Shown: positions 58,497 through 62,317 of the stretch, one piece after another | How positions within the stretch are numbered: the first letter of the stretch is position 1 | How the letters are laid out: each line of letters starts with the position of its first letter | From: Methylobacillus flagellatus | GTDB lineage: Bacteria > Pseudomonadota > Gammaproteobacteria > Burkholderiales > Methylophilaceae | Assembly: GCF_005502435.1 (NCBI RefSeq) | Contig: NZ_SCOU01000004.1 | Location: 124,001-188,000 of the forward strand | Direction of reading: 5' to 3' | Length of the DNA: 64,000 bases | Notes under the pieces: generated by a model | Database searches by the model: none | Seen by the model: only the letters and a program-made list of their open reading frames with translations | What the model was told of the DNA's origin: nothing | Position numbers and translations under genes: made by a program

Positions 58497-59975
58497 ATGA
58501 TCAACAACAGCCTGAAACAGCTGGGGGCGATGCTCGCCAGCAAACAGATCTCCAGCGTGGAAATGACCACGGAGTTCCTCGATCGCATCGATCAGCACAA
58601 CCCGGACATCAATGCCTATATCGCGCTAGACCGTGAGCGTACGCTGGCCCAGGCCGCCGCTGCCGATGCGCGTATCGCCGCGGGCACCGCCGAGCCGCTG
58701 ACCGGCATCCCCATCGCGCAGAAGGATATCTTCGTCGCCAAGGGCTGGCAGACCACCTGCGGTTCCAGGATGCTGGAGAGCTTCATCGGCCCCTACGATG
58801 CCGGTGTCATCGAGCGTTTCGATGCAGCGGGTGCCGTCAACCTGGGCAAGACCAATATGGACGAGTTCGCCATGGGTTCGTCCAATGAAACCTCCTACTT
58901 TGGTTGTGTAAAGAACCCCTGGGATCGTAGCCGTGTGCCGGGCGGCAGTTCGGGCGGCTCTGCGGCGGCAGTGGCTGCGCGCCTGTGTGCGGCGGCGACG
59001 GGCACCGACACCGGTGGTTCCATCCGTCAGCCTGCTTCCTTGTGCGGCTTTTCCGGCCTCAAGCCTACTTATGGGCTGGTGTCGCGTTACGGCATGATCG
59101 CCTTTGCCTCCTCGCTGGATCAGGCTGGCCCCATGGCCAAGTCCTGTGAAGACATGGCGCTGATGATGAACGTCATGACCGGCTTCGACGCGCGTGATTC
59201 CACCAGTCTGCAGCGCGACAAGGAAGACTACACGCGTGGTTTGCCCGCCATGACCGGCGACAAACCGCTGGCTGGCTTGCGGGTCGGCCTGCCACGTGAA
59301 TTCTTCGCCGACGGCCTGAATGCGCAGGTCGGTAGCGTGGTGCAAGCCGCCATCGATGAATACTGCAAGCTGGGTGCCGAGATCGTATCCATCAGCCTGC
59401 CCAACACCCGTCTGTCCATCCCGGTGTATTACGTGCTGGCGCCCGCAGAAGCCTCCAGCAACCTGTCGCGCTACGACGGGGTGCGTTATGGTCACCGTGC
59501 GCCTGAATATACCGACCTGATGGACATGTACTGCAAGTCGCGTGCGCAGGGCTTCGGTGCGGAAGTGAAGCGTCGCATCTTGATTGGCACGTATGTATTG
59601 AGTGCCGGTTACTACGATGCCTATTACCTCAAGGCACAGCAGATCCGCCGCCTGATCGCCGATGACTTCGCCGCTGCGTTCACGCAGTGCGATGTGATCA
59701 TGGGCCCGACTGCGCCCGGCACAGCGTTCCGCTCCGGAGAAAAGGCAGATGACCCGGTGGCCATGTATCTGGAGGATTTGTACACCATCGCCGTCAACCT
59801 GGCGGGCCTGCCTGGCATGAGCATCCCGGCCGGGTTTGCCGAGGTGGAAGGCAAAGCCTTGCCAGTCGGCCTGCAGGTCATCGGCAATTATTTTGATGAG
59901 GCACGCATGCTGGATATCGGCCATGCCTATCAGCAGGTCACGGATTGGCATACGCGCATGCCGGAGGGTGTTTAA
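58497..59975 (+). CDS. gatA: Asp/Glu-tRNA amidotransferase subunit A
   Basis: A 492-residue amidase-signature enzyme. The Ser-cisSer-Lys triad is visible in PIAQKDIF (Lys), [15 protein letters not shown] and [11 protein letters not shown]. It releases ammonia from glutamine for GatB. The C-terminus ends two bases before the gatB GTG; GGAGGG near its end is the gatB ribosome binding site. Confidence 0.96.
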
Positions 59976-59976
59976 G

Positions 59977-61449
59977 GTGGAATGGGAAGTCGTCATCGGG
60001 CTGGAAACGCACACGCAGCTCAAAACCAACTCCAAGATCTTCTCGGGCGCTTCGACCACCTATGGCGCAGCCCCGAATACGCAAGCCTGTGAAGTCAGCA
60101 TCGCCCTGCCCGGCGTGCTGCCGGTGCTGAATCAGGAAGCGGTGCGTTGCGCCATCAAGTTCGGTCTGGCCGTCAATGCCGAGATCGCACCGCGTTCGGT
60201 GTTCGCACGTAAAAATTATTTCTACCCGGACCTGCCCAAGGGCTATCAGATCAGCCAGTACGAGCTGCCTGTGGTGGGTAAAGGCGCGCTGACCATCCAG
60301 GTTGGCGATACCGAGAAGGTCATCCGCATCACGCGTGCCCACCTTGAAGAAGATGCTGGCAAATCCGTGCATGGTGCGGTGGAAGGCATGTCCGGCATCG
60401 ACCTCAACCGTGCCGGTACCCCCCTGCTGGAGATCGTCACCGAGCCGGACATGCGCTCAGCCGCTGAAGCGGTGGCTTATGCCAAGAAACTGCATGAACT
60501 GGTGCAATGGATAGGCATCTGCGACGGCAATATGCAGGAAGGCTCGTTCCGCTGCGACGTCAACGTGTCGGTGCGTCCCAAGGGAACCGATAAGCTGGGT
60601 ACGCGCCGCGAGATCAAGAACCTCAACTCGTTCAAGTTCATGCAGCAGGCCATCGAATACGAGACCCGCTGGCAGATCGAAACGCTGGAAGACGGCGGCA
60701 CCATCCAGCAAGCCACGGTACTGTTCAATCCGGATACCGGCGAAACGCGCGCCATGCGCTCCAAGGAAGAAGCCAACGATTACCGTTACTTCCCCGACCC
60801 GGATCTGTTGCCGCTGGTGATCAGTGAAGCGGACAAGGACGCTGTGCGTGCTGATATGCCGGAACTGCCGCAAGCCATGAAAGCGCGCTTTGAAGCTGAG
60901 TTCGGTCTTTCTGCCTATGACGCAACTCAATTGACAAGCACCAAAGAGATTGCCGAGTATTTTGATAGGGCAATGTTAGAGTTGGTAAGCTTTGAAGGGG
61001 CTAGTGCGTATAAGATAGGTAAGACGGTTGCGAACTTAATTATTAATGATATTGCTGCTCGGGTTAATAAGGCAGGCCTCCCTAATATTCGTCATAGCCC
61101 AGTAACTGCATGGCATATTGTCTGTATTGCCAAAAGCTTGGCCGACGGTTCTATTAATCTGAAAGCCGTTAGAGAGCAGATCATCCCTCTCATATGGGAC
61201 GAGAATTTAACTGAAGCAGATGCTGTAATTAAAATTATTGAAGCAAAAGGCTTGAGGCAAGTTTCAGATAGTGGTGCCATCGAAGCCATCATCGACGGCG
61301 TGCTGGCCGCCAACGTCGCCATGGTCGAAGAATACCGTGCCGGTAAGGAGAAAGCGTTCAATGCGCTGGTAGGTCAGGCCATGAAGGCCTCCAAGGGCAA
61401 GGCCAACCCGGCGCAGGTCAACGAGATGCTAAAGAAGAAGCTGGGCTAG
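59977..61449 (+). CDS. gatB: Asp/Glu-tRNA amidotransferase subunit B, mosaic gene
   Basis: A 490-residue GatB. The kinase domain starts [17 protein letters not shown] and has [22 protein letters not shown] and [10 protein letters not shown]; the last 50 residues ([32 protein letters not shown]) are the conserved YqeY-like tail. It phosphorylates and amidates mischarged tRNA. GTG start. Between about 60.9 and 61.28 kb the DNA turns AT-rich and the helical-domain protein differs from what relatives have ([18 protein letters not shown]), while frame is kept. That suggests replacement of a central segment by recombination. Confidence 0.95.
60905..61278 (+). other. AT-rich divergent patch inside gatB
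   Basis: By hand count 124 of 300 bases at 60961-61260 are G or C (41 percent), against 35 of 60 just before (60841-60900) and 33 of 60 just after (61321-61380). Codons such as TTA, ATT, AAT and GTA, rare in neighbouring genes, crowd here. Both edges are abrupt and lie at conserved protein blocks ([19 protein letters not shown]), as expected for homologous recombination with a lower-GC donor. Confidence 0.8.
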
Positions 61450-61681
61450 TCGCTGTCCGGACGTGACCCGTCTTTTAGAAAATCCAGGATGAAAATCCAG
61501 ATCGCGCCGCGCTAGCGGCTGTTTATTAGCAGCCAGTGCATGTGTGACGGCTAACCAAGCTTCGATTTTCAGACGTGTCATCCCGGCGCAGGCCGGGATC
61601 CAGTTAAGGTTTGGATAATTCTGATTCTCTGGATTGCAGCTTGCGCTGGAATGACGGGGTATTCAGGCGACGCCTTGTAGT
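61450..61681. repeat. Intergenic inverted-repeat element between gatB and pyrE
   Basis: No gene. A perfect hairpin ATCCCGGC-GCAG-GCCGGGAT lies at 61580-61599. The string GTCATCCCGG...GGATCCAG near 61577-61603 is matched by an inverse CTGGATT...GGAATGACGG near 61632-61657, so the whole is an imperfect inverted repeat about 80 bases long, like the widespread GTCATTCCCGCG dispersed elements. A related hairpin is at 664-683. Confidence 0.55.
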
Positions 61682-62317
61682 TCAGGCCACGCCGTATTGT
61701 GCGCGGTAGGCTTGTACCGCAGGTTTGAAGCTGGCCAATTCTGGTGCATCGTCCAGGTAGCGGATCAAATCTACCAGAGTGGCGATCTTGATGACCGGGA
61801 TGGTCTGTTCCACTTCCTGCACCGCTGACAAAGTGCCCAGGCCACGTTCCTGGCGGTCGATGGCGATGGCCACGCCTGCGGGCGTCGCGTCAGCCGCACG
61901 GATGATGTCCACCGATTCACGTACTGAAGTACCGGCCGAGATCACGTCATCCACGATCAGCACACGTCCCGCTAGCGGTGCCCCCACGATGCTGCCGCCT
62001 TCGCCGTGGTCCTTGGCTTCCTTGCGGTTGTAGGCATAGGGCAGATTGTGACCCTGACGGGCCAGCGCGATGCTGATGCTGGCCGCCAGCGTGATCCCTT
62101 TATAGGCCGGGCCGAACAGCATGTCGATCTGCAGGCCGGATTTAACAATGGCGGCGGCGTAGAACTCACCCAGTTTCATCAGGCTTTCGCCGTCGTTGAA
62201 CAAACCGGCGTTGAAAAAATACGGACTCAGGCGGCCCGCCTTGGTCTTGAATTCGCCAAAGCGCAGCACTTGCTTTTGAATGGCGAAACGGATGAAATCC
62301 TGAGTGAAATCGTTCAT
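61682..62317 (-). CDS. pyrE: Orotate phosphoribosyltransferase
   Basis: A 211-residue PyrE making OMP from orotate and [18 protein letters not shown] at the N-terminus, [14 protein letters not shown] (catalytic loop) and the PRPP signature [16 protein letters not shown] are present. The start MNDFTQDFI leaves 16-22 bases to the divergent xthA start, so the two promoters must overlap the opposite gene. Confidence 0.95.

Follow-up and report, generated by a model that had tools for sequence, protein, structure and literature searches.

How does the gene for a core translation enzyme come to contain a stretch that no longer resembles its counterpart in a sister species, within a sequence that is otherwise native? 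This question is raised by gatB in a 64,000-nucleotide stretch of Methylobacillus flagellatus DNA from contig NZ_SCOU01000004.1 (the window, as the whole of this stretch is called below). The gene encodes subunit B of the Asp/Glu-tRNA amidotransferase GatCAB. Alignments show that, once its lineage had separated from the sister species, ~348 bp of this gene were exchanged in frame for a divergent, AT-rich GatB helical-domain segment. Nine other sequences of the family, which genome traits suggest is Methylophilaceae, carry a change of this kind, with differing sequences and breakpoints. We put at roughly 0.6 the probability that the GatB helical domain is an allele-replacement hotspot in this family, with divergent segments imported by recombination and kept by selection for a changed surface.

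An in-frame replacement in the window gatB

The window locus (L001, genome G000) was compared with gatB of G001 (L002), the only other genome of the same genus that was compared. The genes are arranged in the order gatC-gatA-gatB. A sequence-only reading of the window had described an intact gatB frame holding a patch of low G+C (guanine plus cytosine) between richer flanks, and both parts of this description are borne out. The frame runs for 490 amino acids (aa) from the GTG at 59977 to a stop ending at 61449. Sliding G+C over 300 bases is 0.58-0.60 at 60300-60899, 0.43-0.44 at 60900-61299, and 0.54-0.58 at 61300-61899. Codons 328-432 (60958-61272) have a G+C of 0.406, and 0.352 at third positions (GC3), compared with 0.587 and 0.732 for the remainder of gatB; for 60925-61278 the G+C is 0.418. 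A 330-bp interval inside the patch lies in the lowest 0.26% of G+C among such intervals in 220 kb of the contig. The same 220 kb contain ten low-G+C regions, and low G+C by itself is therefore no proof of import.

DNA identity to G001 is 96.2% to the left of the patch (2448 bases) and 93.5% to its right (1706 bases). The nucleotide match ends after 60924 and restarts at 61242 to 61267, varying with program and setting; in the DNA alignment near identity is restored from 61273. Protein identity falls from 99% (residues 1-311) through 56% (312-327) to 31% (328-432), and is 97% again in 433-490. Composition and identity change sharply at both sides, as in an imported mosaic segment. The patch, which had been placed at 60905-61278, is real and by the comparison with G001 slightly narrower, at 60925-61272. 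The unusual peptides that had been named in it are present; of the SP block usual in relatives, HSPVTAW retains SPV. The explanation first offered, internal replacement by a distant homologue of lower G+C, is supported in turn: DNA identity to the sister species is 93-98% in the flanks on either side, hardly any of the patch has a nucleotide match to G001, and frame and fold are kept.

Across a 113-kb region common to G001, 92 genes were compared, and four contain an internal 40-aa interval with identity below 0.40. These are gatB, a collagen-repeat open reading frame (ORF; PF01391), a 121-aa ORF that has no Pfam family, and one ORF whose match is shared with the adjoining ORF, so that a difference in ORF borders is likely. 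On this one contig, gatB is the sole recognised housekeeping gene among the four. The two genomes also differ outside the window, where a ~3.3-kb stretch of the window genome (G000:C4:238409-241662) is absent at the colinear place in G001.

Fold and probable need for the enzyme

Residues 294-418 of the G001 GatB form what we take, from GatCAB structures, to be the helical domain. The cradle domain PF02934 is intact in the window GatB (E 1e-119, 399 bits). PF02637 is detected both in the whole protein, at E 1.8e-36 (125.6 bits vs 181.1 bits in G001), and in the patch alone (60925-61278), at 40.9 bits with a cut-off of 27. An AlphaFold2 model built with 24 aligned sequences has a mean predicted local distance difference test score (pLDDT) of 81.8; ten-residue blocks of the patch score 86-94 and are mainly helical. 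Solved GatB chains are its best structural matches by Foldseek (3ip4_B, 489 columns; 3al0_B, 494 columns). Core residues of the helical domain are common to at least eight of the ten variants described below. From this modelling, the window copy is predicted to retain the GatB fold. Domain order, helical core residues and gene order are likewise those of GatB in GatCAB; what sets the window protein apart is its helical segment, which exceeds that of the sister species by 14 residues and is 31% identical to it. According to a review (PMC4810234), GatCAB reads the elbow of the tRNA through its tail domains, and in the archaeal GatE it is the helical domain that anchors the tRNA.

Asparaginyl-tRNA synthetase (AsnRS, TIGR00457) scores above the cut-off in none of 187 family genomes and in 7 of 14 control genomes. 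GatCAB should therefore be needed for Asn-tRNA, and on this result it looks essential in the family. Redundancy of the enzyme was rejected on the same absence across the 187 genomes, no search for glutaminyl-tRNA synthetase having been made.

Recurrence across the family

GatB sequences of the family were drawn from a search for relatives, from the genera g22, g15 and g19, from the 30 best of genus g6, where some were taken because their length or match looked odd, and from further chosen genomes, some of them odd-looking. The 144 loci gave 141 distinct sequences; 129 with near-complete flanks and helical domain were kept, and 12 were dropped as incomplete.

Divergent, longer, AT-rich helical-domain stretches were found in ten sequences of this set: L001 (the window), L018, L023, L087, L089, L090, L091, L092, L176 and L178. 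On a FastTree tree of the flanks, ten changes are required for the ten variants. Their nearest relatives by flanks have 0.90-0.99 identity there and 0.31-0.51 in the helical domain, except for L176 (0.66); the value of 0.31 is that of L023 against another variant. All ten helical domains are 133-156 residues long, while 115 of the 129 sequences have 124 or 125 residues and four non-variants have 126-130. The unaligned stretches have a G+C of 0.32-0.41 whatever the host, one part of L018 having 0.47, and the hosts themselves range over 0.45-0.59.

The breakpoints vary. The first part of the domain is changed in L090, L092 and L178, the second part in L018, L023, L087, L176 and L175 (see below), and nearly the whole domain in L001, L089 and L091. 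L089 has its best match in L023 (52%), and otherwise no close pair stands out. The richest genus is g22, where L023, L087, L089, L090, L091, L092 and the cut-off gene L093 make up 7 of the 13 genomes in which the domain could be read at least partly. Three further cases lie beyond the 129 sequences: (i) L093; (ii) L175, a second allele in the metagenome-assembled genome (MAG) G506, with a 216-bp stretch of 0.32 G+C between flanks that are 92.6 and 96.9% identical to L173; and (iii) G027, with a G+C of 0.455 over the helical domain vs 0.524. Variant gatB genes are also present in the single-contig genomes G022 and G002. The recurrence of the event at this domain goes beyond what had been observed from the window alone.

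Confinement to the helical domain

Close pairs, those sharing 0.90 or more core identity (n = 565), were scanned for 40-aa intervals below 45% identity; GatA was also read, for 118 of the 129 sequences. Such intervals fall in the helical domain in 33 of the 565 pairs and at the domain border (position 286 on) in two. None was found in GatA (first 60 positions unscanned), in the remaining cradle or in the GatB tail. Change in close pairs is thus confined to the helical domain and its border, as expected of a hypervariable locus under diversifying selection, with many separate events in one domain and none in the neighbouring domains. By a looser measure, 1346 pairs reach a flank identity of 0.90, and in 161 of them helical identity is below 0.55; removal of nine variants (L176 left in) leaves 8 such pairs of 1180.

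A control was taken from the same order, genus g52, which has small genomes; 61 were searched, 60 matched, and 58 gave full-length genes (1455-1482 matched bases). Among the best-scoring 30 of these 58 genes, 242 pairs have a flank identity of 0.90 or more; none of them falls below 0.55 in the helical domain, and the minimum is 0.75. Within the scope of this control, the change is restricted to the family. These figures bear on the most serious alternative, namely that the helical domain simply tolerates divergence, mosaics being left behind when foreign gatB recombines by chance, with no selection involved. Even ordinary family members conserve this domain less than the rest, with a median identity of 0.69 where the flanks have 0.88-0.91, and bacteria are said in one paper (PMC8406222) to tolerate gatCAB mutations. 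However, the control genus has the same enzyme and lacks such pairs, the GatB tail has no such change, and the ten changes on the flank tree all concern longer stretches, nearly all of them AT-rich. Neutral tolerance accords poorly with the control genus, the number of changes and these common traits, and we regard it as unlikely.

Source of the divergent segments

No donor of the window patch was found in 398 genomes of the phylum (best other matches 54.8-55.2 bits, 39-41% identity), in 399 of the order (best 59.6 bits, 40%) or in the 187 of the family (best 46.1 bits, 42%; highest identity 49%). The matches to the patch are GatB sequences, with a listed identity of up to 49%. A search of genome contigs by exact 8-residue patterns, which could miss more diverged donors, gave three Coriobacteria-type MAGs at 31-37%. 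Viral contigs gave no match to the patch, and plasmids and phages gave protein matches of at most 36% and no DNA matches. Within its own genome the patch has no second copy: the search returned gatB itself and a 13-bit match (E 0.149), and PF02637 occurs once. This lack of a second copy of the variable segment does not fit a diversity-generating retroelement or silent-cassette system. No repeats were found at the junctions, and no RNA families. In an approximately unbiased (AU) test on the patch tree, a clade of L001 and L002 is not rejected (p 0.467); the patch is without a close relative and sits on a long branch, which leaves its placement in the tree undecided.

Five phage contigs from IMG/VR, one of them 608 kb long, encode a stand-alone GatB-like protein of ~220-275 aa with helical and tail-like parts and without the catalytic part (Table 1). 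These proteins resemble the window GatB in having PF02637, as tested in L199. Scored against their profile, however, the patch of the window comes 128th among 130 segments, and a phage origin of the patches was dropped. GatB matches also occur in fifteen phage records. The one examined, that of Komagataeibacter phage phiKM1, has an unannotated gatB match (L066:1024-1653) adjoining a tRNA-Ser gene and an integrase, so host sequence around the attachment site may form part of this record; the GatB matches of all fifteen may be host DNA.

Proposed recombination and selection

Under the hotspot reading, incoming DNA would supply the segments through homologous or homology-assisted recombination. 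Anchoring of this recombination in the conserved cradle and tail, on either side of the helical domain, would yield edges such as those in the window. The divergent alleles would then be kept because an altered helical-domain surface is favoured. As the source of this pressure we prefer an antagonist that binds GatCAB at the helical domain, e.g. an antibacterial toxin or a phage protein; this is a guess, and the most plausible one because the enzyme itself must stay active. Tentatively, the helical domain may be the contact of an undescribed toxin or phage protein of this kind, which the bacteria escape by trading divergent AT-rich alleles through recombination; gatB would then hold an arms-race locus within an essential tRNA-charging enzyme, a scheme that we consider possible rather than probable.

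The genes for penicillin-binding proteins are mosaic genes under selection. In Neisseria, parts of the core gene porB have likewise been replaced by foreign homologous segments, according to one report (PMC10327514). Those mosaics concern surface antigens or drug targets, whereas GatB is a cytoplasmic tRNA-charging enzyme under no known pressure. GatCAB is nevertheless a target in interbacterial warfare: the type VI secretion system (T6SS) toxin Tse8 binds the GatCAB transamidosome of its prey and halts translation, according to the partial text of a study (PMC12283126). Tse8 is GatA-like, the GatCAB surface that it requires is not stated in that text, and it serves as a precedent only. A literature search, conducted mostly without subscription journals, found no report of a hypervariable gatB and no known antagonist of the GatB helical domain.

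The pressure might instead come from a selfish element acting on DNA. An endonuclease, integrase or restriction-modification (R-M) element could attack this stretch of gatB, and recoded alleles free of the site would spread by break repair. A homing endonuclease or intein scar would likewise call for an endonuclease gene in or beside gatB. The patches are AT-rich and without a blastn match to native sequence, and the variant genome G587 has a type II R-M pair between gatA and gatB (L265:10035-11685), consisting of an EcoO109I-like endonuclease (PF14511) and an N6/N4 methylase (PF01555). Gene order was read in 12 regions, in which part of the neighbouring genes could be named. An R-M pair adjoins gatB in G587 alone; among the remaining 11 regions, of which 10 have a variant gatB and three have named downstream genes, none has such a pair between gatA and gatB where the region includes both genes. 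The breakpoints moreover differ, the junctions have no repeats, and silent changes would suffice for escape at the DNA level, all of which makes such an element improbable as the cause.

That the native domain mutated at an accelerated rate, with no import, is very unlikely. Milder cases, L082 and L085 among them, could arise in this way, but in the window the end branch of GatB measures 0.007 changes per column in the flanks vs 2.03 in the patch, the G+C of the patch is 18 points lower, and its edges are sharp. A foreign segment joined into the gene by chimeric assembly or faulty binning is scarcely credible. Odd gatB contigs do exist (L196, L198 and the gatB of G578), but in the window each of the two junctions keeps the reading frame and lies at a homologous position, the contig is 284 kb long in a 7-contig genome of 99.99% completeness, and the single-contig genomes G022 and G002 also hold variants.

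Several points weigh against the hotspot reading. Neither a donor nor an antagonist was found. Most variant genomes are drafts, and 10 in 129 is not an unbiased rate, because some genomes were chosen for an odd-looking gatB. L018 and L176 are only partly changed. The nearest relatives of L018, L089 and L091 are just 77-79% identical in flank DNA, so import is less well supported there and some of the divergence may be ordinary; the nearest relative of L023 by flanks is itself a variant. The two alleles of G506 differ by 3-7% in their flanks and may therefore come from two co-binned relatives. The control is one genus, represented by the best-scoring 30 of 58 full-length genes, and five family genomes have AsnRS-like matches below the cut-off. 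Finally, Tse8 resembles GatA, and no contact of it with the GatB helical domain is described in the partial text of that study (PMC12283126).

Features and other gatB loci

Table 1. Coordinates of the gatB mosaic in the window and of GatB-like proteins on phage contigs
Feature	Position	Strand	Remarks
gatA	58497..59975	+	ORF; glutaminase subunit of GatCAB, directly 5' of gatB; non-mosaic in the close-pair scan
gatB	59977..61449	+	GTG start, 490 aa; Asp/Glu-tRNA amidotransferase subunit B; PF02934 + PF02637
Native cradle domain and start of helical domain	59977..60924	+	96-98% DNA identity to G001
Left junction	60886..60925	+	DNA alignment: near identity to G001 lost after the AYDA codons
Replaced segment	60925..61272	+	Residues 317-432, covering the greater part of the helical domain; G+C 41-42%; 14 residues more than in G001
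Right junction	61273..61312	+	DNA alignment: identity to G001 back at the codons for a 13-residue stretch
Native tail end	61273..61449	+	97% protein identity to G001
Stand-alone GatB-like phage proteins	L199:7292-7957, L200:7668-8495, L202:245-925, L204:3357-4037, L256:6001-6651		L256 is a match only

Some other gatB loci are peculiar: (i) Two viral contigs have a piece of GatB fused to an unrelated gene (L196:2043-4595 and L198:7143-8210) and are probably assembly chimeras. The partner in L196 is presumably a portal-like protein, and in L198 we take it to be a FliF-like protein, joined to the GatB tail. (ii) In L179 (genome G578), the gatB frame continues at the contig end, within the helical domain, into other sequence, which is presumably aminotransferase-like. 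(iii) Complete gatCAB sets are annotated on plasmids, in L067 (Acinetobacter cumulans plasmid p1_060092) and L068 (Tistrella mobilis pTM4); mre genes adjoin the set in Acinetobacter (L067). (iv) Two roughly half-complete g15 genomes have fragmented gatB matches with in-frame stops (G475:C1:91441-92864 and G476:C1:426198-427591).

Implications

Core translation enzymes are taken to evolve slowly and vertically, and they are used in typing and in trees. As a caution, gatB is unsuited to phylogeny or strain typing in this family. The repeated swapping of one domain, with the remainder of the gene and its operon partner native, suggests that this surface is under a specific pressure. Should an antagonist prove to be the cause, it would represent a new way of stopping bacterial translation, and the natural alleles of the family would be ready-made variants for finding it.
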